A DNA stretch of 64,000 bases from positions 186,001 through 250,000 of the forward strand of contig CANLTZ010000004.1 of NCBI GenBank assembly GCA_947494145.1, given 5' to 3'. Position 1 is the stretch's first letter; each line of letters opens with the position of its first letter. The position numbers were made by a program, and so were the translations under genes. The stretch is from an uncultured Jannaschia sp. Lineage in GTDB: Bacteria > Pseudomonadota > Alphaproteobacteria > Rhodobacterales > Rhodobacteraceae. Below the pieces are notes generated by a model. It was given only the letters and a program-made list of their open reading frames with translations, had not been told where the DNA came from and searched no databases. Below, piece by piece: positions 1-25,242 of the stretch.

Positions 1-1981
1 GAACGGTCGTATCGAGCTGTTCCAAAATGGCGGGCCCGTCGATCTGGGCACCCACGGGCAGCGTCAGACGGTCATAGATCGCGGTGTCGTGCCAAGCATC
101 GCCGAAATGGACCTGTCGCCTGCGCGTGGGCTGGGTGGAGCCACCGTGCGGCGCCAAAGTCGTCAGGTCGAACTTTGGCCGCTTGCCGATCACGGTGCTG
201 CGCAGGTTGATCACCCGCCGCGTGCCCCGCGCCAACAGGCGGCCATAGGTGGCGTGATAAGTCGCATCGAACGCCGCCGCGATGGCGTCCTGCGTCGGTG
301 GCTGCACCTGGCCATCCGTGACCACCACAGGCAGGGGCACGGCCACGGTATGCGTCTGCCCGGCATAGGCCATGTCGAGCTCAAACCCGGTCTCCCGCCG
401 CTCAAACCGGGTGGGCGTGGCCTCCAGCGCGGCCATGCCCGTATCCACATGGGCCTGCATGAAGGCCACCAGGGCATCGATATCCAGCCCCTCGACTGTT
501 GCATTGACCGTCTGCACGAAGTCTTGCCGCATATCTGCGATGACCGCGCCCATGGCGCTGGTCACGCCCGGGTAGCGGGGCACGATGGCACGGGCCAGGC
601 CGACCTCTGCCATCAGCGCGCCGGTATGCAGCGCGCCACCCCCGCCAAACGGCATGAAGGCAAAGCGCGCCGGGTCGAGGCCCCGCTCGATGCTGACCAG
701 CCGAATGGCGCCCGCCATGCGGGCGTTGGCCACCCGCAGAATGGCTTCCGCCGCGGCCAATGTGTCCAGGCCCAAGGGTGCGCCCACATGGGTGTCGATG
801 GCGCGCGCGGCGGCGTCCACGTCCAGCCGGTCCAGCTTGCCGCCAATGGGCCGCTCCGGGTCGATGCGGCCCAGCACCACGTTGGCATCGGTTACCGTGG
901 GCCGGTCATTGCCCAACCCATAGGCCACGGGCCCGGGGTCGCTGCCCGCGCTTTCCGGCCCGATATTCAGCAATCCGCCCCGATCCACCCACGCGATAGA
1001 GCCGCCGCCCGCCCCGATCGTCGTGATCTCGATCATCGGGGTGCGCACGACCATGCCAAAATCGATGGAGGTCTCGGGCGACAGCATGGACCGCCCCCCC
1101 GCGATCAGCGAAACGTCGAAGCTGGTGCCGCCCATATCGCCTGTGATCACATCATCGAACCCCGCCTCGCCCGCGATATGGGCCGCTGCGATCACACCCG
1201 CTGCGGGGCCCGACAGCGCCGTGCGGATGGGTCGCGCACAGGCCGTGGCCACATCCATGACGCCGCCATTGGATTGCACGATCATGAAGTCCGACGCGAA
1301 GCCGCCTTCGGTCAAGGCACCTTCCAGCCGGTTCAGATATCCCGACACCTCCGGTTGCAGATAAGCGTTGAGTGCGGTGGTCGAAAACCGCTCTAACTCC
1401 CTGATTTCGGGCAAGACTTCCGAGGACGTCGAGACATGGGGGTTGGGCCAGATCTCCCGCAGGGCCGCCACCGCCAGGGCCTCATTTTCAGGATTCGCAT
1501 AGCTGTTGGCGAACAGGATGGCGACCGCTTCGCATCCGGCCTCCAGCAGCGTGCGGGCAGCGGCGCGCACGGCGTCCAGGTCAACGGCCCGGCGGATCGT
1601 GCCATCGGCCAGCGTCCGTTCCGGGACCTCCAGACGCAAATCTCGCGGCACGACGGGTTCGAAATCGCCGCGCAGACCCCAGGTGCGGGGGCGGTCGCGG
1701 CGGCGCATTTCCAGCACATCGCGCAGACCTTCGGTTGTGATCACACCGATGCGCGCGCCCTTGCGTTCCAGCAAGGCATTGGTGCCCGCCGTGGTCCCGT
1801 GGATGACCGCTGACACTGTGGACAGGTCCGACACTTCGCGCCCGATCCCGTCCAGAAAGCCGCCCGACTGGTCAGGCCGCGTGGTGGGCACTTTGGCCAC
1901 ACGGGCCATGCCGGTTTCATCGTCCAGAAAGAAGACATCCGTGAAGGTGCCGCCCACATCCACGCCGATCATGCGGGTCAT
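1..1981 (-). CDS. hyuA: HyuA-type hydantoinase/5-oxoprolinase subunit A, 3' end cut by window edge
   Basis: ATP-dependent cyclic amide or carboxylase-like hydrolase subunit of the HyuA/oxoprolinase family, acting with HyuB in the cytoplasm. Reading leftward from the ATG at 1981 the protein starts MTRMIGVDVGGTFTDVF, the phosphate-binding signature of the family. The frame stays open to base 1, where it reads the typical C-terminal GPAILEQLDTT stretch. About 660 residues are present of an expected 680-690, so only the tail is missing. Its start codon overlaps the hyuB stop (tcat at 1978-1981), so the two are translationally coupled. Substrate cannot be told from sequence; family members act on hydantoins, 5-oxoproline, acetone or acetophenone. 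The NTF2-like gene, the GntR regulator and the LeuCD/TRAP operon opposite suggest catabolism of an imported small acid (inference). Confidence 0.93.
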   Translation of the reverse strand, partial: MTRMIGVDVGGTFTDVFFLDDETGMARVAKVPTTRPDQSGGFLDGIGREVSDLSTVSAVIHGTTAGTNALLERKGARIGVITTEGLRDVLEMRRRDRPRTWGLRGDFEPVVPRDLRLEVPERTLADGTIRRAVDLDAVRAAARTLLEAGCEAVAILFANSYANPENEALAVAALREIWPNPHVSTSSEVLPEIRELERFSTTALNAYLQPEVSGYLNRLEGALTEGGFASDFMIVQSNGGVMDVATACARPIRTALSGPAAGVIAAAHIAGEAGFDDVITGDMGGTSFDVSLIAGGRSMLSPETSIDFGMVVRTPMIEITTIGAGGGSIAWVDRGGLLNIGPESAGSDPGPVAYGLGNDRPTVTDANVVLGRIDPERPIGGKLDRLDVDAAARAIDTHVGAPLGLDTLAAAEAILRVANARMAGAIRLVSIERGLDPARFAFMPFGGGGALHTGALMAEVGLARAIVPRYPGVTSAMGAVIADMRQDFVQTVNATVEGLDIDALVAFMQAHVDTGMAALEATPTRFERRETGFELDMAYAGQTHTVAVPLPVVVTDGQVQPPTQDAIAAAFDATYHATYGRLLARGTRRVINLRSTVIGKRPKFDLTTLAPHGGSTQPTRRRQVHFGDAWHDTAIYDRLTLPVGAQIDGPAILEQLDTTV

Positions 1982-13866: not shown

Positions 13867-14582
13867 GGCGGGCCACCATCGAGGAAATCGCGTAGCAATG
13901 CGCTGAACAGGGCCGGTTTCTCGGCATGAACGGCATGGGCACAGCCCGGCACGACGGCGAGCCCGGCGCGCGGGATGGCGGACCAGAGCCGCTCGATCTG
14001 GGGCCAGGCATAAGTGCGGTCGCGATCACCCCACAGTACCAGCGTGCCCTGCGGGATGTCGGGTAGGTGTGCGTCGCCTGACCACGCCTCCATCGCGTCG
14101 AGCCCGGCATGGATCGCACTAAGCGACGCGCGTTCGGCGATTGCTGCGCAGGGGGCGAAGCCGGGGGCGGCTCTGCCATCCAGAAACCATGTCGCCGCGA
14201 TGCGGGACGCCGTGGCCGCGGCGCCGTCGGCTTCGGCGCGGCGCTTGCTTTCCGCGATGGTTTCGAAACGTCCGGGCAGCAGGCCCGTGGCGCCGGTGGC
14301 GTAAAGGATCAGCCGGTCAATGCGCACGCGGTCCCGTCGCGCGATTTCCTGCGCGATCATACCGCCCATGGAATGGCCAAGCAGGTCATAGCGGTCGATG
14401 CCAAGTGCGGTCAGCTCCGCCACGACCCAATCGGCGAAGGCCCCGATCTGGGTCATGGGCGCCTCATCGCACCGCGCGCCGAAGCCCGGCAGGTCCAGCG
14501 CCACGGTCTCGCGCCCCACTTCGACCCCCGCCCATTGCGCGCCGCCACCTAGGAAGCCGTGGACGAGGACGAGGGGCGTCAC
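13863..14582 (-). CDS. Alpha/beta-fold hydrolase
   Basis: A 239-residue soluble alpha/beta hydrolase. It starts MTPLVLVHGFLGGGAQW, with the oxyanion HGF motif. The nucleophile elbow is GHSMGG (Ser71), the acid lies in LVLWGDRDRTY, and the catalytic His in the C-terminal GCAHAVHAEKP, so the triad is complete. Related to MenH/BioH-like esterases. Both ends overlap neighbours by ATGA: its start lies in the proW-like stop (14579-14582), and its stop in the DUF1989-GcvT start (13863-13866). It is thus firmly part of the importer operon. It may hydrolyse an ester or thioester in the same pathway; the substrate is unknown. Confidence 0.85.
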   Translation of the reverse strand: MTPLVLVHGFLGGGAQWAGVEVGRETVALDLPGFGARCDEAPMTQIGAFADWVVAELTALGIDRYDLLGHSMGGMIAQEIARRDRVRIDRLILYATGATGLLPGRFETIAESKRRAEADGAAATASRIAATWFLDGRAAPGFAPCAAIAERASLSAIHAGLDAMEAWSGDAHLPDIPQGTLVLWGDRDRTYAWPQIERLWSAIPRAGLAVVPGCAHAVHAEKPALFSALLRDFLDGGPP

Positions 14583-16120
14583 CCCCGCTTCCCCTGGACG
14601 ATGCGGTCAAGGATCATCGCGCAGAACAGGATCGAGAAGCCCGCCAGGATGCCCTGGCCCACATTGGCGTATTGCAGCGCCTCTAGCACGTCTTCGCCCA
14701 AGCCCTTGGCCCCGATCAGCGAGGCGACGACCACCATGGCGAGCGACAGCATGATGGTCTGATTGATGCCCGCGCGGATGGATGGGCCCGCCAGCGGCAA
14801 GTCCACCTTTGTGAGCAGATACCATTTGCTGGCGCCAAAGCTGATGGCGGCTTCGCGCACGCTTTCGGGCACGCCGCGCAGGCCCAGCACGGTCAGGCGC
14901 ACGACGGGGGTGCCGCCGAAGATCATGGTGGTGACCACGGCAGCCGGTTTGCCGGTGCCGAAGAAGGCGATGACCGGGATCATGAAGACGAAGGCGGGCA
15001 TGGTCTGCATGAAATCCATGATCGGTTGGATCACGCGGTAGAAGCGCGGGCGGCGGGCCGCGAACATGCCCAGGGGGATACCGATGGCGATGGACAGGCA
15101 GGCTGCGGTGCCCAGAAGCGCCAGGGTCGTCATCGCCTTTTCCCAGAAACCCAGAAAACCCATATAGGCCAGGAATGCACCCGACCAGACCGCCATGCGC
15201 AGGCCCGCCGTCAACCAGGTCAGCAGCACGATCAGCGCGAAGATCACGATCCAGGGTGTTGAGACGAAGACCAGTTCCAGCGCGTCCAGCACCAGGCGGA
15301 TACCGGCGGTGATGGCGTCGAACAGCGCTTCGCCGTTCAGAACCGCCCAGTTGAAGAACGCCTCCACCCAGGCGATGGCGGTCAGGCGGATGTCGGGCAC
15401 GGTGGGGAAGTCGTTCAGCAGGCTAAAGCGCCCCGGTAGGCTGTAATGGACCATGGCGACCGCGACGATCAGCGCCATGAAGACGGCGCTGAATGCGATC
15501 TGTGTGTTTGGCATGCCGGACCGAACGGATCGGTTCGACAGCCATTCCGAAAACCGCGCCTCCAACGCCCAGTTTGCGACTGTGGCTTGGGCCGCTTTGA
15601 CGACCAGCAGCAGCACAAGGCCCATCAGTGCGATGGTGGGCCCTTGCGCAGCGATTGCGTCGGCCTCGGCGCGGATGCCGTCGATATTGGCCTCCAGCGA
15701 TTCCACCGTGCGGCGGAAGGCGTCCACGCGGTCCGAGCCGCTTTCGATGGCGGCCTGTAGCTGTTGGCGGCGCAGGTCGAGCGTGCCTTCGATGGACGCG
15801 ATCCGCGCCATGGCATCGGCGGCCAGGTCACCGAACAGGCCACGGGCAATCTGGACGAGGGCGATGGCCTCCAGGATCAGGAAGGGCAGCGCCCATGACC
15901 ACAGCCCGCGGGCCCCGAACCAGACGGGCCCCATCAGCCCTGCGGCCATGTTGAACGTGGGCGTGAAGCGGGCAGAGGCACCGACGCGTTCGAAGTTGCG
16001 GATATAGTAGTCGGGGCTGGTTTCCACGAAAGCACGGATATTGTCCCGCCGTTCTTCCGCATAGGCGATGGCGGCGGCGCTTTCGGTGTCTTCCAGCGGA
16101 TTGACGGTATCTATCTTCAT
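14579..16120 (-). CDS. proW: Betaine/osmoprotectant-type ABC permease with N-terminal extension (ProW-like)
   Basis: Inner-membrane permease, 513 residues against about 350 for E. coli ProW. The C-terminal BPD permease domain is canonical, with GTAACLSIAIGIPLGMFAARR, the DFMQTMPAFVFMIPVIAFFG segment, and an EAA loop around VPESVREAAISFGASKWYLL. The first 160 residues are additional. YYIRNFERVGASARFTPTFN followed by MGPVWFGARGLW resembles DUF2628-type membrane modules. A probable coiled coil follows at about 107-160, then a membrane helix. It is coupled by ATGA overlaps to the ATPase gene upstream and the hydrolase downstream. Substrate is probably a quaternary amine or similar zwitterion, by family. 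Confidence 0.9.
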   Translation of the reverse strand: MKIDTVNPLEDTESAAAIAYAEERRDNIRAFVETSPDYYIRNFERVGASARFTPTFNMAAGLMGPVWFGARGLWSWALPFLILEAIALVQIARGLFGDLAADAMARIASIEGTLDLRRQQLQAAIESGSDRVDAFRRTVESLEANIDGIRAEADAIAAQGPTIALMGLVLLLVVKAAQATVANWALEARFSEWLSNRSVRSGMPNTQIAFSAVFMALIVAVAMVHYSLPGRFSLLNDFPTVPDIRLTAIAWVEAFFNWAVLNGEALFDAITAGIRLVLDALELVFVSTPWIVIFALIVLLTWLTAGLRMAVWSGAFLAYMGFLGFWEKAMTTLALLGTAACLSIAIGIPLGMFAARRPRFYRVIQPIMDFMQTMPAFVFMIPVIAFFGTGKPAAVVTTMIFGGTPVVRLTVLGLRGVPESVREAAISFGASKWYLLTKVDLPLAGPSIRAGINQTIMLSLAMVVVASLIGAKGLGEDVLEALQYANVGQGILAGFSILFCAMILDRIVQGKRG

Positions 16121-17172
16121 GACACTTCCGTCCCCTCGATCACGGTGCGCAGCAGGTCCGCCCGTGTGATCACGCCCCTGTCCGTGCCCGCATCGTGGAC
16201 GATGACGGGGCGGTCGTCGTCGATGGCCATGGTGATCAGATTGCTCAGCGTCTCGCCCTCATCCACCCGGGGCAGATCGGCCGAAAGCGGGCCATGGGTG
16301 GCCGCATAGGCGTCGAGCGGCTGCATCACCGCATGGGCATGGACGACCTTGAGCCGTGAAATGCCAGCCACGAAGTCGGCCACGTAATCGTCGGCGGGGT
16401 GCATGACGATATCTTCGGCGGTGCCCGTCTGCACCATCTTGCCGTCGCGCATGATGGCGATGCGGTCGCCGATGCGCACGGCTTCGTCCAGGTCGTGGGT
16501 GATGAAGACGGTGGTCTTCTTGAGGATCTTGGACAGGCGGATGAATTCATCCTGCAATTGCCGCCGGATCAGCGGGTCGAGGGCGGAAAAGGGTTCATCC
16601 ATCAACAGCACGTCAGGATTGGCGGCCAGGGCCCGAGCGAGGCCCACACGCTGCTGCATGCCACCTGACAGCTCATGTGCGAATTTCGCGCCCCAGGCGC
16701 CAAGTTCTACGATATCCAGGATCGCTGCGGCCTGGCGCATCCGTTCGTTCTTGGCCACCTGGCGGATTTCCAGCGGCATGGCGACGTTGTCCAGAACCGA
16801 GCGATGCGGCATCAGCGCGAAGTTCTGGAAGACCATGCCGATCTTGTGGTTGCGGAACCGCTGCAATTCCTTGGGCTTGAGGGCGGTGACATCCACGCCC
16901 TCGATCTCGATCCGGCCAGCGGTGGGCTCCAACAGGCGATTGAAGTGGCGCACCAGGGTCGACTTGCCGCTGCCCGACAGGCCCATGATGCAGAAGATTT
17001 CGCCGCGCCGGACCGACAGGCTGACATCGGCCACGCCGACCACGGCGTTGAATTCGCCCAGGACTTCGGCCTTGGTCAGACCCCGGTCGCGGATGGCCTG
17101 CAAGGCGGCCTCGGGCCGGTCGCCGAAGATTTTCCAGACATCGGTGACGTCGATGACACGGTCGTCCGACAT
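16117..17172 (-). CDS. proV: Betaine/osmoprotectant-type ABC ATPase (ProV-like)
   Basis: ATPase subunit, 351 residues, peripheral inner-membrane. Walker A is GLSGSGKST (64-72), the signature ELSGGMQQRVGLARAL, Walker B VLLMDEPFSALD, and the switch His in VFITHDLDEAVRIGD. The N-terminal extension IRDRGLTKAEVLGEFNAVVG is typical of ProV/OpuAA. A C-terminal CBS-like region (about 285-350, RPVIVHDAGTDRGVITRADLL) could sense ionic strength as in OpuA. It is followed by the permease in an ATGA overlap and preceded by a 66-bp gap holding the hairpin at 17194-17220. Confidence 0.93.
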   Translation of the reverse strand: MSDDRVIDVTDVWKIFGDRPEAALQAIRDRGLTKAEVLGEFNAVVGVADVSLSVRRGEIFCIMGLSGSGKSTLVRHFNRLLEPTAGRIEIEGVDVTALKPKELQRFRNHKIGMVFQNFALMPHRSVLDNVAMPLEIRQVAKNERMRQAAAILDIVELGAWGAKFAHELSGGMQQRVGLARALAANPDVLLMDEPFSALDPLIRRQLQDEFIRLSKILKKTTVFITHDLDEAVRIGDRIAIMRDGKMVQTGTAEDIVMHPADDYVADFVAGISRLKVVHAHAVMQPLDAYAATHGPLSADLPRVDEGETLSNLITMAIDDDRPVIVHDAGTDRGVITRADLLRTVIEGTEVS

Positions 17173-17193
17173 GGGCGCATCCCCTGGCTCAAG

Positions 17194-17220
17194 CCCGCGC
17201 GCAGGACATCCGCGCGCGGG
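17194..17220 (-). promoter_or_regulatory. Intercistronic stem-loop after proX
   Basis: CCCGCGCGC (17194-17202) and GCGCGCGGG (17212-17220) form a perfect nine-pair stem with a nine-base loop, in the only sizeable gap of the proX-proV-proW transcript. There is no T-run in the transcribed direction. Likely an attenuator or 3' end protector that raises binding-protein mRNA. Confidence 0.6.
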
Positions 17221-17238
17221 TCGTATTGTCCGTGTCGC

Positions 17239-18198
17239 TCAGAGGCCCAGCATGGCGTCGACGCGGTCCGAATTGGCTTCGACCCATTCGGCGGCCACTT
17301 CGGCGGGGTCGCGGCCATTGGCGCTGATTTCGAAGGCCAACTGGCTCACATCGCCCGCGTCGAGCGAGAAGTTCTGAAAGAACTCCGCAATGGCAGGTGA
17401 CCGGTCGACCAGGGAATTGGACCACGCGATCTGCACATCTTTCAGGGCGTCTTTTGAGGCCACCATGGATTTTTCGTACCAGTCGGGGTCATCCGAGGGT
17501 TGGACCATGACATATTGCGCCGGGTCGTAATCCGGCTCCGTCAGCATGACGACGTCGAACATGAACCACACGGCATGGGGTTCATAGCAATAGAACGCAT
17601 AGCCTTCGCCCTTGGCGATGGAATCCTTGATGCGCGCGGTTTTCACGGCTTCTTCGGCGCGGATGGGCTCAATGAAGTCGAGCAACCCGTAATCGCGGAC
17701 CTTCACTTCGTTGACATTGGCCGAGGCCCAGCCTGGCGCGCCGATCCACATCTCGCCCCGGCCATTGCCGTCGCTATCCATCAGCGCGGCCACATCGGGG
17801 CGGCCCAGATCGGCGATGTCGGTGATGTCGTTGGCCGCGGCAAAGTCCTTGGACACGCAGAAGCCCTGATTGCCCTGATAGGGATTTTCCGACAGCGAAA
17901 CCGTGCCCGCTTCGTCGACATATTGCTTGGTGAAGCTTTCCTGGTTGGGCAACCAGACGTCCGGGTGGACGTCGATGTCGCCTTCGCCCTGGTCCATGGC
18001 CTGGAAGATGGTGGCATTGTTGCCTGGCACATATTCGACCTCTCCACCGATGCGCGAGGTCACGACTTCGCCCAGCACATGGGCGATGGCCTGCGCGCCG
18101 GTCCAGGACGGCACGCCTATCTTGACCTCTTCGGCGAAGGCGGGGGCGGCGGTGGCTGCCAGTAATGTTGCTGCGAGCAGCTTGGTTCTTATCGTCAT
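17239..18198 (-). CDS. proX: Betaine/osmoprotectant-type ABC substrate-binding protein (ProX/OpuAC-like)
   Basis: Periplasmic binding protein, 319 residues. The start MTIRTKLLAATLL (ATG 18198) gives a clean signal peptide ending AAPAFA before EEVKIGVPSWTGAQ, and follows GGGAGAC. The OpuAC family pattern includes EYVPGNNATIFQAMDQGEGDIDVHPDVWLPNQ and later GWASANVNEV and YCYEPHAVWFMF, with aromatic residues of the kind used to cage quaternary amines. Upstream in-frame codons are rejected because they lie in the preceding gene's 3' end. It lies 28 bases downstream of the CuyA-like gene, in the same operon. The ligand is inferred to be a betaine-like or sulfonate zwitterion. Confidence 0.92.
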   Translation of the reverse strand: MTIRTKLLAATLLAATAAPAFAEEVKIGVPSWTGAQAIAHVLGEVVTSRIGGEVEYVPGNNATIFQAMDQGEGDIDVHPDVWLPNQESFTKQYVDEAGTVSLSENPYQGNQGFCVSKDFAAANDITDIADLGRPDVAALMDSDGNGRGEMWIGAPGWASANVNEVKVRDYGLLDFIEPIRAEEAVKTARIKDSIAKGEGYAFYCYEPHAVWFMFDVVMLTEPDYDPAQYVMVQPSDDPDWYEKSMVASKDALKDVQIAWSNSLVDRSPAIAEFFQNFSLDAGDVSQLAFEISANGRDPAEVAAEWVEANSDRVDAMLGL

Positions 18199-18226
18199 TG
18201 CGAAAGTCTCCCTCTTGGTTTCGTTG

Positions 18227-19321
18227 TCAGTCCACATAGCCGGGCAGGTCAAAGGCTTGCGGGTAACCGAACAGCGCGGCGCTGCCCCCGGTATGAAGGA
18301 AGACGACGTTCTCCATACCTTGGAAATATCCCTTGCCGATCTGGTCAATCAGCCCGTCCAGGCCCTTGCCTGAATAGACCGGATCGAAGAGCAGGCCTTC
18401 GGTTCTCGCAAGAAGCTTAAGTGCGTCGACCATGCCAGCGGTTGGGATGCCGTAGCCGCCGCCCACATAGTTGCAATTAGCGCGTACCGTGTCGCGCGCG
18501 ATCTTCGTGCCCGTGCCAAGATGCTCGGCGGTTCGGCAAGCTAGGTCGAACACCATCTGTTCCTGCCGGTCTTGCGGGGCGCGCACGCCGATGCCGAGAA
18601 GGTGGATATCGCTTTCCAAAGCGGCCAGCCCGGCCACAAGCCCGGCCTGCGTGCCCGAACTGCCGGTGGCATGGACCAGCGCGTCGATCTTCAGGCCAGA
18701 CGCCGCGGCCTGATCGGTCAGTTCCAGCGCGCAATTGACGTAGCCAAGGGCACCGGTCGGGTTCGACCCTCCGCCAGGGATGACGTAGGGCGTGCCGCCG
18801 TCCTGGCGCAGAATGTTGGCCAGCGCCTCCATCTCGGCCACCATATCGGCGCCGCCGGGACGTTTGGACACGGTCGCGCCATGCAGACGGTCCAGCAGGA
18901 CGTTGCCGTTCAGGACATAGTCGTCATCCGTTGCGCCGGTCCGGTCTTCCAGCAGGATATGGCAGGCCAAGCCGAGCTTTGCGGCGGCGGCAGCGGTCTG
19001 GCGCGCGTGGTTCGATTGCGTGGCACCTTGGGTGATGATCGCATCTGCGCCCTGTGCGACGGCCTCTGCCATCAGGTATTCCAGTTTGCGCGTCTTGTTC
19101 CCGCCCGAAGACAGGCCCGTGCAATCGTCGCGCTTCACCCAAAGCCGGGGCCCCCCAAGCACCTCGCTCAGCCGATCCATGGGCTCAAGCGGTGTAGGCA
19201 AGTGCCCCAGCCGTATGCGCGGATGCCCCTCCAGCGCGGTCGCGAGGGCTGCGCGCCGTTGCGCGGCATCCACCGTCGGCGATTGCACCGCCCCTTCGGC
19301 TGTCTGATCTACCACTGCCAC
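18227..19321 (-). CDS. D-cysteine desulfhydrase / L-cysteate sulfo-lyase-like PLP enzyme (CuyA-like)
   Basis: A fold-type II PLP lyase of the ACC deaminase/D-cysteine desulfhydrase family, 364 residues, cytoplasmic. The GTG start at 19321 is set by GGGAGGAGG seven bases upstream. PLP-binding Lys76 is in [13 protein letters not shown]. The [18 protein letters not shown] and [18 protein letters not shown] motifs are intact, as are FDPVYSGKG and [14 protein letters not shown]. Resemblance, from memory, is strong to Ruegeria CuyA, which splits L-cysteate to pyruvate, ammonia and sulfite. D-cysteine desulfhydrase remains possible. The first 32 residues are longer than usual. It heads the leftward operon with the importer and GcvT-type enzyme and faces a LysR gene, its likely regulator. 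Confidence 0.85.
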
Positions 19322-19352
19322 GTGATCGCCTCCTCCCGGTTTCAAGCGTGGT

Positions 19353-19363
19353 GGAAGCGTTCC
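19353..19363. promoter_or_regulatory. Short inverted repeat in the LysR/CuyA-like divergent region
   Basis: GGAA-GCG-TTCC is symmetric and lies in the 118-bp region between the two divergent start codons, where a LysR regulator would bind. It is short, so it is only a candidate half of a LysR site. No convincing -35/-10 pair is visible for either direction. Confidence 0.3.
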
Positions 19364-19439
19364 GCGCCGGGACGGCAATAGACAGTGCTTTTTTCTTGGC
19401 CTGCCCATACGATCCCTTTGGGCGATGCGGGGGATGGCG

Positions 19440-20360
19440 ATGGATCTGAACTGGTTGGACGATGTCCTGGTTCTGTTGGAGGAGCAGAATTTGACCCGGG
19501 CTGCGGCCCGGCGAAATGTGACGCAACCTGCATTTTCCAGGCGGATCAAGTGTTTCGAGGATTGGGTCGGGGTGCCTGTCCTGTCGCGCAGCACCAACCG
19601 GATCGAGATTGACCCGGCACTGCGCGCCAATGAGCAAGAGATCCGCGCTTTGGTGTCACGGTTGCGCGGCCTTCGCTCAACGATTGCGCAGCATGACCCC
19701 TTTGCAAGCAGTCTGCACATCGTAGCGCAGCATGCGTCGTTCCTGTCCTGCTATCCGGCCATGGCGCTGCGGTTGCGCGCGGCGCTGCCCCGGGTGAACC
19801 TGCATGTCCATGCCCGCAACCTGGGTGAATGTGCGAGCATGTTGCTGCGGGGCGATGCGCGGATGCTTCTGTGCCACGAAGCCGAAAGTGCTGCGCCCCT
19901 TCGGCTGGGCGCGGGGGTCGCGCGGGGCCTTTGGGGGCGCGATGATCTGATCCCCGTCGTCGGCGGCGTGTTGCGCGACACCGTGGCCCGCGATGCCGCC
20001 GTGCCGTCGGACTTACCTGCGATTGTCTACCCGGAAGACAGCTACTTCGGCTCTGCGCTGACGCGCCGCCAAAGGGTCTTTGGCACAGCGGCCTTGTCAG
20101 AGGTCGCGGTCTGCGAAACTGCGTTTTCCGCCGGAATAAAGGAGTTGGTTTTGGATGGGCTGGGCGTCGCTTGGTTACCGTCGAGCATGGTACAGCGCGA
20201 GTTGGCCGGGGGCACGCTGACATCCCTGGCCAGCAGGCTTGGATCGGAACCGCTTGAGATCGCGATCTACGCCGACATGAGTTCAGATATCGCGACGGCT
20301 GTCTTAGATATTCTAACCGGCGATCACGCAAATCGGGCGGGGCCGGTCGGCTTGGATTGA
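19440..20360 (+). CDS. LysR-family transcriptional regulator
   Basis: A 306-residue regulator. The start [15 protein letters not shown] (ATG 19440) fits the family N terminus and follows a GGGGG site. ATGs at 19425 and 19434 in the same frame would add three to five residues. The winged helix is visible in [20 protein letters not shown] with the linker helix [18 protein letters not shown]. The effector domain is less conserved, but the C-terminal [18 protein letters not shown] pattern is typical. It is transcribed away from the CuyA-like/ProXVW operon, so it probably controls that operon and itself. Confidence 0.9.
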
Positions 20361-20467: not shown

Positions 20468-21013
20468 GTGGACCGAGAGACGTCTTGGACTTCCCTCATG
20501 CAAGCCGCCCGTTCCGGCGATGCATCCGCGTGCGAGAAATTATTAGGCGAAGTGGCCGAGGCCCTTCGGCCCGTCGTCGCCAGCCGTCTGGCCCATCTTC
20601 ATTGTTCTGAGACCGAAGCAGAGGACGTGCTTCAGGAAATCCTGATCGCCATCCATTGCAAGGGCCACACCTGGGATGACAGCCGCCCGATCCTGCCATG
20701 GATCTACGCGGTCACGAAATACAAGATACTGGATGCCATGCGCCGGTCGGGCCGCCGTCGCGCCGTTCTGTCGGATATCGGCATCGACGAATTGGAAGAC
20801 CGTATGGCCGCCCCTGCGACCGAAACGGTCGGGCCCCATGAATTGGCGCAGTTGCTTGACCACCTGCCTGAACGGCAACGCGGCGTCGTGTCTGCACTAG
20901 CCTTGAAGGGGGACACCGTCGCCAACGTGGCCCGTGACAACGGGTTGCGCGAAGGGGCGGTTCGCGTGGCGTTCCACCGTGGGCTCAAGACGCTTCGAAA
21001 GCTGGCGGGTTAG
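20468..21013 (+). CDS. sigF: ECF RNA polymerase sigma factor (SigF-like)
   Basis: Alternative sigma factor, 181 residues. The GTG start at 20468 follows AGGAGAG. Region 2 is visible in ETEAEDVLQEILIAIH and DDSRPILPWIYAVTKYKILDAMRRSGRRR; region 4 in LDHLPERQRGVVSALALKGDTVANVARDNGLREGAVR. It is followed after two bases by a gene for an NrsF-type membrane anti-sigma. This pairing matches the Caulobacter SigF-NrsF system that responds to heavy metals. The downstream msrB and bufferin genes fit the same regulon. The candidate target promoter is at 22483-22508; no similar promoter is seen upstream of the sigma gene itself. Confidence 0.88.
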   Translation: MDRETSWTSLMQAARSGDASACEKLLGEVAEALRPVVASRLAHLHCSETEAEDVLQEILIAIHCKGHTWDDSRPILPWIYAVTKYKILDAMRRSGRRRAVLSDIGIDELEDRMAAPATETVGPHELAQLLDHLPERQRGVVSALALKGDTVANVARDNGLREGAVRVAFHRGLKTLRKLAG

Positions 21014-21015
21014 CC

Positions 21016-21627
21016 ATGCGGACCGAAGACCTGATCCGACAATTGTCGCGCGCCCCCGCGCCGCGCCCGGACGGCAGCCCGACTGTGGCGCTGATGATGG
21101 CGCTTGGTCTGGGGGTTGTGATTGCGGCGCTGTCAGCCGCCTATCTGGGTTTCCGTGGCGATGTCCGGGCGTTTGCGCCGGATGATGCCACGTTGATCAA
21201 AGTTCTTGGCGCCTTTGCCGTCATGATTGCGGCGGGGTCTGCCGCGCTTCGGCTGTCGGCGCCGGGCACGTCCAACATCTGGCGTGTGCTGGCCTGCCTG
21301 TCGCTGCTTGGGGTCATGGCTGCCGGCGCCCTGCAATCTGGTCTGCCGCCCCTTTCGGGCCCTGGGGCGGAAACGGCATCACGCCTGGTGGTCCTTTCGG
21401 TCCCGGGACTTGTCCTTTGCCTGGTGATCTTGCGCAAACGTGCGGCCGTCAGCCCGGCGCTCACAGGGGCAAGTGCGGGGCTTATGGCGGCGGGTTCGGC
21501 GGCCATCGGTTATGCGCTACACTGCCCCGCCGAAGTGGCTGGTTTCATTGCGCAATGGTACGGGTTGGCGGCGCTTGTTTCTGCCGCTTTGGGCGCGGTT
21601 TTGGGGCGGCACGTCCTGGCCTGGTGA
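21016..21627 (+). CDS. nrsF: NrsF-family (DUF1109) membrane anti-sigma factor
   Basis: A 203-residue inner-membrane protein with about six hydrophobic segments, of the DUF1109/NrsF family that sequesters SigF-type ECF factors. The soluble N terminus MRTEDLIRQLSRAPAP probably contacts the sigma factor. Cysteines are C94, C135 (LVLCLVILRK) and C170 (ALHCPAEVAGF). The last two lie where NrsF proteins carry the conserved Cys pair linked to metal sensing (from memory of the Caulobacter work). The start is two bases after the sigma stop, so the pair is co-translated. Confidence 0.85.
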   Translation: MRTEDLIRQLSRAPAPRPDGSPTVALMMALGLGVVIAALSAAYLGFRGDVRAFAPDDATLIKVLGAFAVMIAAGSAALRLSAPGTSNIWRVLACLSLLGVMAAGALQSGLPPLSGPGAETASRLVVLSVPGLVLCLVILRKRAAVSPALTGASAGLMAAGSAAIGYALHCPAEVAGFIAQWYGLAALVSAALGAVLGRHVLAW

Positions 21628-21754
21628 CACGTTGCGTGGCACCGCCGTTTATCAAAAAATGGTAACATCACCGATTTGAGATCGCGCGTGAGGCGACGTG
21701 GCGTCATGCTGATCCTATCTCTCTTAAATCGTTATTTTCAAAAGAGGTATGCAG

Positions 21755-22309
21755 ATGTTTGAGCACAAATTGACGAGACGGGCTGTTCTCGCCTCCACCG
21801 CAGGGATGTCTTTGGCCAGCATGTTGCAGGCTGATGAGATGGTAACCCCCTCTGGCGAAACCATTGTTACGTATAACCCCGAAACTGCCGACTTCCCCTT
21901 CGAGGTACAGCGCAGCGAAGCCGAGTGGCGCGCGCATCTGGGCGATGACGACGACGCCTATGAGGTGCTCCGCCGTGCCAAGACGGAACAGCCCAAGACC
22001 ACCGATCTGTGGAAGGAAGCCCATGCGGGTGGTTACGAATGCCGGGGCTGCGGCCTGAAGGTCTATGATGGGGCTTGGTTTGAGCCGCTCGATAAAGGGT
22101 GGGTCTTTTTCCACCACGCGGAAGCCCATGCCGTCATGTTCGCGACCGATGGGCCGGTGCCGCAATACGGGCAGGGGCCGAACAATGCGCCGCGCTTCGG
22201 GTTGACGGAAATCCATTGCAGGCGCTGTGGCTCTCACCTGGGGCACCATCTTCGCCTGTCAGGGATGCAATTGCATTGCATCAATGGGACGTCGCTTTCG
22301 CTGGCCTGA
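21755..22309 (+). CDS. msrB: Exported peptide-methionine (R)-S-oxide reductase (MsrB)
   Basis: Repairs methionine-R-sulfoxide in proteins; here probably periplasmic. The start MFEHKLTRRAVLAS (ATG 21755) is preferred to the ATG six bases earlier because GAGG lies seven bases upstream of it. The N terminus has a twin-arginine TRRAVLAS motif and a hydrophobic stretch, a probable Tat signal. SelR zinc ligands are C96/C99 (ECRGCG) and C155/C158 (HCRRCG). Catalytic C175 is in LHCINGTSL, where the usual motif is RYCINS. It ends at a strong terminator (22333-22360). Its position between nrsF and the bufferin genes suggests a role in metal or oxidant stress. A GGTAAC at 21660 hints at a SigF-type -35, but no matching CGAA follows. 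Confidence 0.88.
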   Translation: MFEHKLTRRAVLASTAGMSLASMLQADEMVTPSGETIVTYNPETADFPFEVQRSEAEWRAHLGDDDDAYEVLRRAKTEQPKTTDLWKEAHAGGYECRGCGLKVYDGAWFEPLDKGWVFFHHAEAHAVMFATDGPVPQYGQGPNNAPRFGLTEIHCRRCGSHLGHHLRLSGMQLHCINGTSLSLA

Positions 22310-22332
22310 CGGTTCTCAGGTTTGATTGACGG

Positions 22333-22360
22333 ATGGCGGGGGCTGCAATGCCCCCGCCAT
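22333..22360 (+). terminator. Rho-independent terminator after msrB
   Basis: Perfect 11-bp stem ATGGCGGGGGC / GCCCCCGCCAT with a six-base loop (tgcaat), followed by ATTTCTGTTT. It separates msrB from the bufferin operon, which therefore needs its own promoter. Confidence 0.85.
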
Positions 22361-22482
22361 TTCTGTTTCGTCGCCTGCCACATGACGCTGGACCCGCTGC
22401 CCCGGGCACAGCGACGCTGGTTTGCGTCCAGGTCCCCGTTTTCACGTCACATCACGAACACTTCACGCTTCCGTGAGGGCGC

Positions 22483-22508
22483 GTAACGAACCTGATCCCG
22501 CCAGCGAA
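22483..22508 (+). promoter_or_regulatory. Candidate ECF SigF-type promoter of the bufferin operon
   Basis: GTAACG (22483-22488), exactly 16 bases, then CGAA (22505-22508). The Caulobacter SigF consensus as I recall it is GTAACC-N16-CGAA, so one mismatch. It lies downstream of the msrB terminator and about 90 bases before the bufA start, as expected for a transcript with an 80-base leader. The sigma factor encoded at 20468 is the obvious user. Confidence 0.7.
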
Positions 22509-22596
22509 GTACCTGTGTCGGATGCGCGGGCCGGGTGAGCGGGCCGCGTGTCGGAATTCGTCGAAGTTCTGACGCAACCCAAAGCAGGAGCATTGA

Positions 22597-22908
22597 ATGT
22601 CCAAGAAGACCATCACCAGCCTCGGCCTTGCCGTGGCCGCCGCCGTCACCATGCAGCCCGGCACCGCCGAGGCGCAGGCAAAGGAAAAGTGCTACGGCAT
22701 CTCGCTGGCCGGCGAAAACGACTGCGCCGCGGGCCCCGGCACCACCTGCGCCGGTACGTCGGTCGTGGACTTCCAGGGCAATGCCTGGACGCTCGTCCCT
22801 GCTGGCACTTGCGAGTTGTATGGCGTCGAAGAAGCCGATGCCGACTACGAACTGCCTGGTGACCGGACGGGCAGCCTTGAGCAGTTGGATCGCGACCTGC
22901 CGGCATAA
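22597..22908 (+). CDS. bufA: Bufferin precursor, BufA1 family (DUF2282)
   Basis: Secreted ribosomal peptide precursor, 103 residues, start after AGGAG. The signal peptide is about residues 1-26, ending TAEA before QAKEK. Four cysteines, C32 (EKCYG), C43 (NDCAAG), C51 (TTCAGTS) and C72 (AGTCEL), match the DUF2282/bufferin-1 pattern. In bufferins a DUF692 enzyme converts Cys residues into copper-binding heterocycles, and the product buffers periplasmic copper. The unusual part is the C terminus: after C72 come some 30 mostly acidic and polar residues ([19 protein letters not shown]...), where members I remember stop soon after GTCE. Next come the MNIO, partner and DoxX genes, giving a complete operon. 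Confidence 0.88.
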
Positions 22909-22982
22909 GGCACGGCACATCCCACCGACCCGATACCGGTCCTGCATCTGCGTGGGGCCGGACCTTACAGGAAAGAGCCGCC

Positions 22983-23858
22983 ATGCCCCGCGATACCGGA
23001 CCCCGCCCCTACAGCGTGCCCCTGGCGCCGGGTGTTGGCCTGAAGGCCTGCCATATCCGCGACATCGAAGCCGATCCTGGCGCTGTGCAGTTTCTGGAGA
23101 TTCATGCGGAAAACTACATGGGTGCCGGTGGCCGCCCCCACCATGACCTGATGCGCCTGCGCGAACGGTTTCCGCTGTCGCTGCATGGTGTGGCGCTGTC
23201 CATCGGCGGCGCCGATCCCATCGACCGCGAGCATCTGGCGCGCCTGCGCACGCTGCGCGACCGCTATGAGCCGGGGTTGTTTTCGGAACATCTGGCCTGG
23301 TCTTCTCATGAAGACGTCTATTTTCCCGACCTGCTGCCCGTGGCCTACGATGATGAGACGCTGGACCGCGTCTGCGACCATGTCGATGCTACGCAGGACG
23401 CCGTGGGCATGCAGATGCTGCTCGAAAATCCGTCAACCTATCTGGCCTTTGAACATTCCACCATGGCCGAGATCGACTTTATGGCCGAAGTGTCGCGACG
23501 CACGGGCTGCGGCCTGCTGCTCGACATAAACAACGTCTTCGTGTCCTGCGCCAACCATGGCGAAGACCCGGTGACCTATCTTGATGCGTTTCCGTTGGCG
23601 GCGGTGGGCGAAATCCACCTTGGCGGCCATGAGGCGCAGCAAGATGACGTGGGCCGCCCCCTTTTGATCGACACCCATAGCCGTGCGGTCATCGACCCGG
23701 TTTGGCGGCTTTACGCCCGCGCCATCGAACGCGGTGGCCCGCGCCCGACCCTGGTGGAATGGGATAAGGACATCCCCGCCTGGCCCGTCCTTGCCGCTGA
23801 GGCTGCCCGTGCTGAAGCAGTCCTGACCGGACGGGCGGATCAGGCAGATGTCGTCTGA
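22983..23858 (+). CDS. bufB: MNIO-family multinuclear iron oxygenase (DUF692, BufB)
   Basis: A 291-residue cytoplasmic TIM-barrel enzyme of the DUF692 (MNIO) family, which uses two or three iron ions to modify cysteines of bufferin-type precursors. Metal and active-site motifs are in place: HAEN (41-44), LHG with H68, SEH (101-103), LLENPSTY with E148, LDINN with D181, EIHLGGH with H212 and H216, DTHS with D230 and H232, and VEWDKDIP with E259 and D261. The start MPRDTGPRPY follows an AGGAAAGAG-like site. It overlaps the partner gene by 11 bases (23848-23858), so the two are coupled. Confidence 0.93.
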   Translation: MPRDTGPRPYSVPLAPGVGLKACHIRDIEADPGAVQFLEIHAENYMGAGGRPHHDLMRLRERFPLSLHGVALSIGGADPIDREHLARLRTLRDRYEPGLFSEHLAWSSHEDVYFPDLLPVAYDDETLDRVCDHVDATQDAVGMQMLLENPSTYLAFEHSTMAEIDFMAEVSRRTGCGLLLDINNVFVSCANHGEDPVTYLDAFPLAAVGEIHLGGHEAQQDDVGRPLLIDTHSRAVIDPVWRLYARAIERGGPRPTLVEWDKDIPAWPVLAAEAARAEAVLTGRADQADVV

Positions 23859-24630
23859 TCGCTCTGATGAATTTGCCCGTGCCTTGCTTCGACCCGATTT
23901 GCCCGCGCCGGACGGGCTTGTGGCAAGTCGGCGACCCAGCGATGCAAACCCGCTGGATCAGCGACTTGCGGTCTATCGCAACACGGTTGTCGCAAGCCTT
24001 GTGGACACGTTGGAAGGGCGCTTTCCCATCACCTGCCGTATACTTGGCCGGGATTTCTTTCGCGCCGCGGGGTGTGCCTTTGCCATGGCCCACCCGCCGA
24101 GGTCCAAGGTGCTGATGGCCTATGGTGATGGGCTGCCCGCCTTTCTAGCCGGGCTCGATCAGATGTCCCGCGCGCCCTTCGTGCCCGATGTGGCCCGTCT
24201 GGAAGCCGCCATTGGCCGCGCGCTTCATGCGGCAGATGCGGACCCGGTTGGCATCGCGGCTTTAGCCGCCCTCCCGGACGAGGCGTTGAACGACGCGCAA
24301 CTGGTGCTGCACCCATCCGTGGAATTAGTCGCATCGCACTACCCCATCGCCACCATTCGCGAGCGGGAGACACGGGGTGAAGGCGGGCCAAAGATCGACA
24401 TGGCGCAGGGCGAAGACGTGATGGTTCTGCGCCCGCAGCTGGACATCGTGACCTGCCGACTGCCCGCGGGCGCCCATCCCTTCATCGAGGCCCTGCTTGG
24501 CCAGGCGCCATTGGCGCGTGCGGCGGAAGCGGGCGCCGCACGGGAGGGGTTCGACCTTCCCGCAAACCTCGCCGCGCTTTTCGAAGCGGGCGCCGTCGTC
24601 GATGTGATCCCCGCGGATCGCCCGACCTAA
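23848..24630 (+). CDS. bufC: BufC/HvfC-family (DUF2063) partner of the MNIO enzyme
   Basis: A 260-residue protein with an N-terminal DUF2063 domain: FARALLRPDLPAP, DQRLAVYRNTVVASLVDTLE and FPITCRILGRDFFRAA are typical. The C-terminal half is of lower conservation. Proteins of this family bind the precursor leader and the MNIO enzyme, presenting the substrate. The start ATG lies inside the MNIO gene. It is followed after 15 bases, with a GGAGAGG site, by the doxX gene. The set of precursor, DUF692, DUF2063 and DoxX corresponds to gigABCD of Caulobacter. Confidence 0.87.
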   Translation: MSSDRSDEFARALLRPDLPAPDGLVASRRPSDANPLDQRLAVYRNTVVASLVDTLEGRFPITCRILGRDFFRAAGCAFAMAHPPRSKVLMAYGDGLPAFLAGLDQMSRAPFVPDVARLEAAIGRALHAADADPVGIAALAALPDEALNDAQLVLHPSVELVASHYPIATIRERETRGEGGPKIDMAQGEDVMVLRPQLDIVTCRLPAGAHPFIEALLGQAPLARAAEAGAAREGFDLPANLAALFEAGAVVDVIPADRPT

Positions 24631-24645
24631 GGAGAGGACACAGAC

Positions 24646-25242
24646 ATGACCACAGCCAATGACACGGTCGCCCCCTCGGCATCTTCATCTTCCGGCCTTC
24701 TGGGAAAGCTCGGAGCCCTGCATGACAGGGTCTTTGCTGCGATCCAATCTGCAAGCGATGGCGGCATCGAGCTTTTGGCCCGCGTGGTCTTCCTGCTGGT
24801 GCTGGCGCCCTATTTCCTTGGCTCTGCCATGACGAAGATCGGCTCGGGGTTTCCCGGCATCTTCGTGCCCCAGGACGGTGCTTATATCCAGATCGTGCCG
24901 CATCTGATGGAGCAGGCGGGTTACGACGCTTCCCAGATCGGGCTGATGGGTGACTTGATCGTGCTGGCGGGCACCTATGGCGAGTTTCTGTTGCCGGTCC
25001 TGCTGATCGTCGGGCTATTCACGCGGATTGCGGCGCTTGGCATGGTCGTCTTCGTTCTGGTCCAATCCTATGTCGATATCGTGCTGCACGCCGTGGACCC
25101 GAACACGATCGGCGCATGGCTCGACCGGACATCTGGGTCGGTCATTCTAGACCAGCGGGCTTTCTGGGTGTTTTTGCTTCTGTCCCTCGTGGTGCGGGGC
25201 GGTGGCTGGCTTTCTGCCGATCGTTTGATCGGTCGGAAGTAG
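24646..25242 (+). CDS. DoxX-family membrane protein of the bufferin operon
   Basis: A 198-residue inner-membrane protein of the DoxX family with four hydrophobic segments (about 46-66, 94-112, 119-143, 165-185). The N-terminal 35 residues are soluble and Ser/Thr-rich. DoxX proteins are often the last gene of bufferin (gig) operons and are thought to be redox partners, but their role there is not settled. It starts 15 bases after the DUF2063 gene. The operon ends at the hairpin at 25252-25285. Confidence 0.85.
   Translation: MTTANDTVAPSASSSSGLLGKLGALHDRVFAAIQSASDGGIELLARVVFLLVLAPYFLGSAMTKIGSGFPGIFVPQDGAYIQIVPHLMEQAGYDASQIGLMGDLIVLAGTYGEFLLPVLLIVGLFTRIAALGMVVFVLVQSYVDIVLHAVDPNTIGAWLDRTSGSVILDQRAFWVFLLLSLVVRGGGWLSADRLIGRK

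Follow-up and report, generated by a model that had tools for sequence, protein, structure and literature searches.

We analyzed a 64,000-nucleotide stretch of DNA (64 kb; hereafter the window) from an uncultured Jannaschia sp., in which seven genes at positions 20468 to 25242 encode an extracytoplasmic function (ECF) sigma factor, an NrsF-type anti-sigma factor, an MsrB-like protein, and the products of a bufferin operon. The source genome (4.91 Mb, 53 contigs, 98% complete) contains one DUF2282 and one NrsF, and the terms family, class, and genus below refer to those of this genome. An initial annotation had placed the seven genes at these positions, in one direction and in the named families, and this was confirmed by the open reading frame (ORF) listing and by Pfam, in which all seven products exceeded the gathering cut-offs. 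The features are as follows.

20468..21013, + strand: sigF, ECF sigma factor of ECF16/SigF type, GTG start (Pfam Sigma70_r2 and r4_2)
21016..21627, + strand: nrsF, NrsF anti-sigma factor, Thr120 at the conserved-Cys position, C170 kept (Pfam NrsF; alignments of 50 and of 128 NrsF)
21662..21666, + strand: isolated GTAAC (−35-like) in the nrsF-msrB gap (sequence)
21749..22309, + strand: msrB, twin-arginine translocation (Tat)-type MsrB-like protein of a divergent subfamily (Pfam SelR, PDB MsrB matches, subfamily alignment)
22331..22362, + strand: hairpin with a T-containing tail in the msrB-bufA gap, candidate terminator (13-pair stem)
22483..22508, + strand: ECF16 sigma-F promoter motif GTAACG-N16-CGAA of the bufferin operon (weight-matrix scan and genome pattern search)
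22597..22908, + strand: bufA, Buf1 (DUF2282) bufferin precursor (Pfam DUF2282, precursor comparison)
22983..23858, + strand: bufB, MNIO maturase (NF050167, above cut-off)
23848..24630, + strand: bufC, DUF2063 partner protein (Pfam DUF2063)
24646..25242, + strand: bufD, DoxX-family membrane protein (Pfam DoxX)

The gaps are 2 bp between sigF and nrsF, 121 bp between nrsF and msrB, 287 bp between msrB and bufA, and 15 bp between the DUF2063 and DoxX genes, and the MNIO and DUF2063 ORFs overlap by 11 bp. In Pfam, the sigma factor scored 34.8 bits for sigma-70 r2 (cut-off 24) and 30.6 for r4_2 (25.7), NrsF scored 97.8 (26.8) with its profile matched near full-length, and SelR/MsrB scored 52.5 (24.9). 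The bufferin proteins scored 79.6 for DUF2282 (22.4), 345.7 for MbnB_TglH_ChrH (25), 75.2 for DUF2063 (27.2), and 31.7 for DoxX (23.6), and the full operon of the initial annotation, namely, precursor, MNIO, DUF2063, and DoxX, is thus present. At the NCBIfam equivalog level only the MNIO passed (BufB, 375.6 vs 310). The sigma factor passed the ECF superfamily model (53 vs 42.9) and failed the SigF-like equivalog (176.8 vs 198), and NrsF (77.4 vs 300), MsrB (42.2 vs 113.05), the precursor (17.4 vs 60), DUF2063 (37.1 vs 142), and DoxX (25.8 vs 80) were also below their cut-offs. The earlier statement that each family call is strong is therefore too generous, chiefly where the functions named are those of NrsF and MsrB.

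An ECF sigma gene followed directly by a gene for an NrsF (DUF1109)-family anti-sigma factor is the arrangement of an ECF16 pair, and of 18 columns that are conserved at 90%, the sigF product deviates from 124 relatives at 2. The bufA product has the four Cys of a Buf1 precursor, a long acidic tail, and, by eye, a signal peptide; the MNIO, DUF2063 partner, and DoxX of a Buf1 operon all follow. For the bufB product, compared with 62 relatives, the deviation is at 1 of the 45 columns that are conserved at 95%.

Upstream of bufA, GTAACG-N16-CGAA (22483–22508) fits exactly the ECF16 consensus (T/C)GTAAC-N17-CGAA (PMC8315932), and a pattern search of the genome found the same site at C4:208483-208508. 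We surveyed 50 fetched same-family loci plus the window with the pattern GTAACN-15..17-CG[AT]. The motif was found upstream of bufA in 29 of the 33 loci with a bufA match (32 relatives and the window) and upstream of sigF in 33 of 49 family loci (the window being counted and lacking it), compared with approximately 1% of shuffles in each case. A weight matrix was built from 61 survey sites excluding the window, which had been preselected by the pattern itself and score 11.8 to 28.3 bits; on both strands of the 64 kb, the bufA site scored 20.1 bits and the runner-up 10.6. Among the 30 best-scoring same-family DUF2282 loci (279 genomes have a match), the motif preceded the precursor gene in 14 of 17 loci from NrsF-bearing genomes vs none of 13 from NrsF-lacking genomes (L080, L082, L084, L086-L090, L092, L093, L096, L097, and L101); the 17 mostly repeat the 33-locus survey, and the 13 are new. 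From the motif and comparative genomics, we infer that sigma-F would control bufA.

A low-threshold scan with the same matrix found no ECF16 site upstream of the window sigF or msrB, and the GTAAC at 21662..21666, which has no ECF16 −10 element, is probably not a promoter. Of the initial claim that the targets of the sigma factor are clustered with it, the part concerning bufA is supported by its promoter motif and the part concerning msrB is not supported: no ECF16 site was found in front of that gene, and a candidate terminator follows it. Across the source genome, GTAAC-N16..19-CGAA gave 40 matches and the reversed-pattern control gave 88 and 96 (by strand); because the control gave more, the set is not enriched as a whole. 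Fourteen of the 39 non-bufA matches, hand-picked by spacing, were inspected and none was retained: 11 lie inside genes by rough ORF calls, and the remaining three (L268; L278, before a methylmalonyl-CoA-mutase-like ORF; and L279) were unconvincing. At the MsrP-type genes (four Oxidored_molyb matches, L153-L156), the best weight-matrix site scored at most 9.7 bits. Elsewhere in this genome, at approximately 4800 of L040, a pyruvate-kinase-like ORF contains an ECF16-like site (GCAACG-N16-CGAA) whose score of 14.9 bits is comparable to the lowest scores in the training set.

NrsF matches over the cut-off occur in 53 of 394 family genomes (source genome included) and 77 of 385 class genomes, and DUF2282 occurs in 279 of the 394 family genomes (source genome again included). 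We fetched 49 NrsF loci from the family and 78 from the class; five family and seven class matches over the cut-off, most of them partial, lie outside this set, as do all those below it. A sigF match was present in 124 of the 127 loci and absent from three. Within the fetched stretch, 65 of the 124 contain bufA (52 divergent, nine co-directional upstream, three co-directional downstream, and one convergent), and 59 do not, some of these stretches ending at contig ends. The clustering of regulator and bufferin genes noted initially is therefore present but not unusual, and the window order sigF-nrsF-msrB-bufABCD was found in none of the 127. At least 226 of the 279 precursor-bearing family genomes lack an NrsF over the cut-off. 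Since none of the 13 loci tested from such genomes has the motif, many bufferin operons of the family are probably under another regulator, and the contrast between NrsF-bearing and NrsF-lacking genomes suggests that this applies to most of them. A plasmid collection gave no NrsF match; of 219 records, the 20 listed are precursor-plus-MNIO matches with 66 to 72% identity.

At one position, the window NrsF differs from all 127 others compared. In an alignment of 128 NrsF (the window, 49 family loci, and 78 class loci, with several genomes contributing two or three), column 120 is Cys in all 127 other sequences, the window alone having Thr. Conservation in at least 85% of the 127 is reached by just two columns, namely, this Cys and a Pro, which the window keeps. 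Column 170 is Cys in 82 of the 128, His in 38, and something else in eight (one a gap); the window has C170 and so retains the second conserved Cys. The spacing of 120 to 170 equals that of 131 to 181 in Caulobacter NrsF and 129 to 179 in Bradyrhizobium OsrA, and Thr120 accordingly corresponds to Caulobacter C131 and OsrA C129; these two proteins were equated by spacing, outside the 128-row alignment. A frame slip or a single-base error as the cause of Thr120 was rejected on the grounds of this spacing and of the ACG codon (21373–21375), none of whose positions has the base found there in either Cys codon.

Mutants of these residues have been described. In Bradyrhizobium, OsrA C129S gave 19.8-fold unstressed ecfF expression with two-hybrid activity at background, and C179S represses and does not respond to H2O2 (PMC3420878). 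In Caulobacter, C131S and C181S each raise basal expression, and the double mutant has the highest basal expression and loses induction; direct binding could not be tested with recombinant NrsF by Kohler et al. (PMC3511200). The single mutants differ between the two bacteria. By analogy, the window NrsF would be nature's equivalent of the constitutive mutants, unless it is compensated. That the sigma release proposed in the initial annotation works in the usual way is not supported, because this NrsF lacks a Cys that a relative requires to hold its sigma factor. A brake lacking its first Cys may leave the switch partly stuck on or working differently, and the switch is perhaps naturally derepressed or re-gated. 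Together, the missing Cys and the missing sigF promoter suggest a switch without a tight brake and without feedback.

Several observations weigh against this. The Caulobacter C131S single mutant is still inducible, as is C181S (PMC3511200), and other changes in NrsF may compensate for Thr120; the window protein is divergent overall, and no close relative was found for a selection test. An ECF16 promoter precedes sigF at 33 of 48 loci from the family and 27 of 76 from the class (60 of 125 in total, with the window lacking it), and the strict motif is therefore missing in 15 and 49 loci, respectively; its absence is common and need not be tied to the loss of the Cys. The regulon may also be larger, because the genome-wide search covered the CGAA form only.

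Decay of NrsF, with a sigma factor effectively unregulated or near loss and the bufferin operon alone under selection, would explain the loss of an otherwise invariant Cys, the score under the NCBIfam NrsF cut-off, and the patchy presence of the gene, a true NrsF being found in one of 20 genus genomes, the source genome included. We regard it as unlikely, because the frame is open and full-length, 2 bp behind sigF, and its 120-to-170 spacing is that of 131 to 181 in Caulobacter. Moreover, an alignment of 50 NrsF that included the window listed 22 columns as at least 80% conserved, and by hand count the window matches at 18.

The MsrB-like protein has a Tat-type N-terminus (TRRAVLAS, by eye) and five Cys, namely, two CxxC pairs (C98/C101 and C157/C160) and C177. 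It has the features of an MsrB in belonging to SelR with two CxxC motifs and a catalytic-type Cys, and PDB MsrB structures match it with a best E value of 3.5e-8. However, it is below the NCBIfam MsrB cut-off and lacks the canonical R-x-C segment, whose Arg has a role in canonical MsrB; LHC replaces RYC. In a subfamily alignment, its segments LDKGWVFFHH and LHCINGTSL are those of a divergent subfamily, the relatives having LDKGWVFFHH-like and LHC- or VHC-type segments. As four of the five Cys lie in CxxC pairs, leaving C177, an outside reductant is probably needed, and the altered active-site segment of the subfamily may point to a different substrate or reductant. The five named relatives come from two Jannaschia, one Roseivivax, and two genomes labeled Rhodobacteraceae/Paracoccaceae, in keeping with the Rhodobacterales-like genome recognized initially. 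An AlphaFold model from six sequences had a mean pLDDT (predicted local distance difference test) of 37 and was not used.

An insertion unrelated to its neighbors may account for this gene, which would be the one among the four Tat-type MsrB-like genes of the genome that landed by chance between nrsF and bufA; we consider this quite possible, though short of an even chance. It agrees with the presence of three further Tat-type paralogues of the divergent subfamily in the source genome (C18:5931-6500, C11:42218-42637, and C1:254182-254682; L038, L039, and L040), in addition to which a more distant MsrB match lies on C5. No sigF or bufA was found in the fetched stretches of the three paralogues and the five named relatives, and no common neighbor was evident among them (by eye, with rough ORF calls). 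The candidate terminator at 22331–22362 also separates msrB from bufA; its 13-pair stem is the longest of six in 9 kb, but its T tail is weak and sites of this kind are not enriched over shuffles (mean 7.4). We infer at least two transcription units, sigF-nrsF(-msrB) and bufABCD.

An insertion is, by contrast, harder to reconcile with the recurrence of msrB beside sigF-nrsF in other lineages. In 10 of the 124 NrsF loci, msrB lies divergently upstream of sigF within approximately 3 kb, center to center (L135, L136, L204-L206, L209, L215, L217, L229, and L252, from several alphaproteobacterial lineages), and two more loci have it 5.3 kb from sigF (L182) or beside nrsF with no sigF match (L203). 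Upstream of msrB, an ECF16-type motif occurs in six of these 12 loci, compared with 0.6% of shuffles, and 11 of the 12 proteins have RR (Tat-like) N-termini by eye, L205 being the exception. Canonical GTGWPSF and RYC segments were seen in the proteins of L203, L204, L205, L229, and L252; bufA is also present in L135, L205, and L217, with a weak match in the latter two. Oxidored_molyb (MsrP-like) genes lie near sigF-nrsF in L208, L229, and L252, two of which also have msrB. Msr genes are common to several ECF16 regulons, according to a published analysis (PMC8315932). The self-contained metal/oxidant response unit of the initial annotation is consequently weakened, since msrB has no ECF16 promoter in the window, precedes a candidate terminator, and is of a divergent subfamily, although its recurrence beside sigF-nrsF elsewhere speaks for it.

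The recurrence also favors a standard inducible SigF/NrsF-bufferin unit in which Thr120 is neutral, C170 is the sensor, copper or oxidants release sigma as in Caulobacter, and msrB belongs to the regulon, as do the retention of C170, the equivalent of which serves the signal response in OsrA (PMC3420878), and the inducibility of the Caulobacter single mutants. We hold this to be possible but not probable: the lost Cys is the invariant one, whereas the retained one is Cys in only 82 of 128; a Ser mutant of the first Cys is nonfunctional in Bradyrhizobium; the window msrB has no ECF16 promoter; and the recurrent msrB genes, canonical-looking where read, are divergent from sigF, whereas that of the window is co-directional and from another subfamily.

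As to origin, a same-genus genome (G403, locus L180) has 78% DNA identity to window positions 13880 to 20275, ending near the end of lysR, and 18 kb fetched from it (9.6 kb past lysR) gave no match to sigF, nrsF, or bufA. This end of synteny coincides with the left edge of the island; at 18227–20360 of the window, a D-cysteine desulfhydrase-like gene is divergent from the LysR regulator. Besides the NrsF of the source genome, the 20 genus genomes gave two further matches, of 24 bits and within far longer frames. A quick tree was made from 84 of the 125 sigma factors; in it, the window groups with L202 and L211 (other families) and L123 (same family) with a Shimodaira-Hasegawa-like approximate likelihood ratio (SH-aLRT) support of 91, outside a 39-row family clade (95). 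The MNIO tree did not place the window firmly, and the 15 best matches of its MNIO among 62 NrsF-linked MNIO are all from the same family. The island was likely acquired by transfer, judging from these comparisons; loss in sister genomes may be an alternative.

Taken together, we consider it likely that a horizontally variable ECF16 SigF/NrsF pair lies beside the bufferin operon that it controls, that its brake is altered, and that msrB is a neighbor. Free sigma-F would transcribe bufABCD from the promoter at 22483–22508. The MNIO and DUF2063 proteins would then convert precursor Cys to copper-binding thiooxazoles, and the exported peptide would buffer periplasmic copper, both steps being established for the bufferin family. 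The MsrB-like protein could plausibly have a related role in periplasmic methionine repair, its gene being read from another promoter or by read-through from sigF-nrsF. With the altered NrsF and no sigF promoter, bufferin expression would probably be less repressed and not self-amplifying, unless NrsF compensates. More tentatively, and as a conjecture that we would not favor, the loss of the Cys would leave sigma-F largely free and the loss of the sigF promoter would remove the positive feedback by which this could become harmful, yielding standing production of a copper-buffering peptide; if true, an inducible copper/oxidant response has been turned into a permanent one. An NrsF that naturally retains the second Cys alone, beside an intact-looking target operon, offers a ready-made test of the part played by each Cys. 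In the accessible, largely open-access part of the literature, no natural NrsF without the first Cys and no msrB inside a sigF-nrsF-bufferin cluster was found.

The sigma/anti-sigma/bufferin pairing itself is not new, because ECF16-controlled operons of this type are published, SigF/NrsF or RpoE7/EcfR7 controlling DUF692-DUF2063 operons (PMC3511200, PMC8224329, PMC6180224), and Buf1 clusters are reported to include sigma and NrsF genes (MNIO landscape paper, PMC12452194). The same operon type depends on SigF or RpoE7 in Caulobacter and Sinorhizobium (PMC8224329, PMC6180224, PMC3511200). The functional link in Caulobacter cited by the initial annotation is borne out by published work (PMC3511200, PMC8224329), in which copper induces the sigF regulon and sigF disruption impairs growth in copper, but the name gig belongs to Cupriavidus, the Caulobacter genes being CC3254-CC3257 / CCNA_03363-03366. 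The window resembles the Caulobacter crescentus SigF-NrsF system (CC3254-CC3257 / CC2907-CC2905) in its ECF16 sigma factor, its NrsF, and a DUF2282-DUF692-DUF2063-DoxX operon behind a sigma-F promoter. Periplasmic methionine sulfoxide repair is a further likeness, the regulon containing MsrP/YedY (CC2748) there and a divergent Tat-type MsrB being the candidate here. The window differs in lacking the C131 equivalent and a detectable ECF16 promoter at sigF, and in its co-directional genes with msrB in between. In Sinorhizobium meliloti, RpoE7-EcfR7 likewise adjoins a DUF692/DUF2063 operon (SMb20527-SMb20530) with ECF16 promoters, but the layout is divergent, the sigma factor is apparently autoregulated, both Cys are reported as conserved, and the accessible text mentions no msrB (PMC6180224). 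Bradyrhizobium japonicum EcfF-OsrA shares the ECF16 sigma factor, the NrsF-family anti-sigma factor, and methionine sulfoxide reductases in the regulon, but is H2O2-inducible and has both Cys (PMC3420878). Finally, although the alphaproteobacterial locus L211 (G787) has sigF-nrsF after DoxX rather than before the operon, retains the NrsF Cys, and has no msrB match in its fetched stretch, it carries bufABCD-sigF-nrsF on one strand, provides the top-scoring sigma match (46%), and has a precursor that shares the long tail (YGVEE..LPGDR.GSL....RDLP) of the window precursor.

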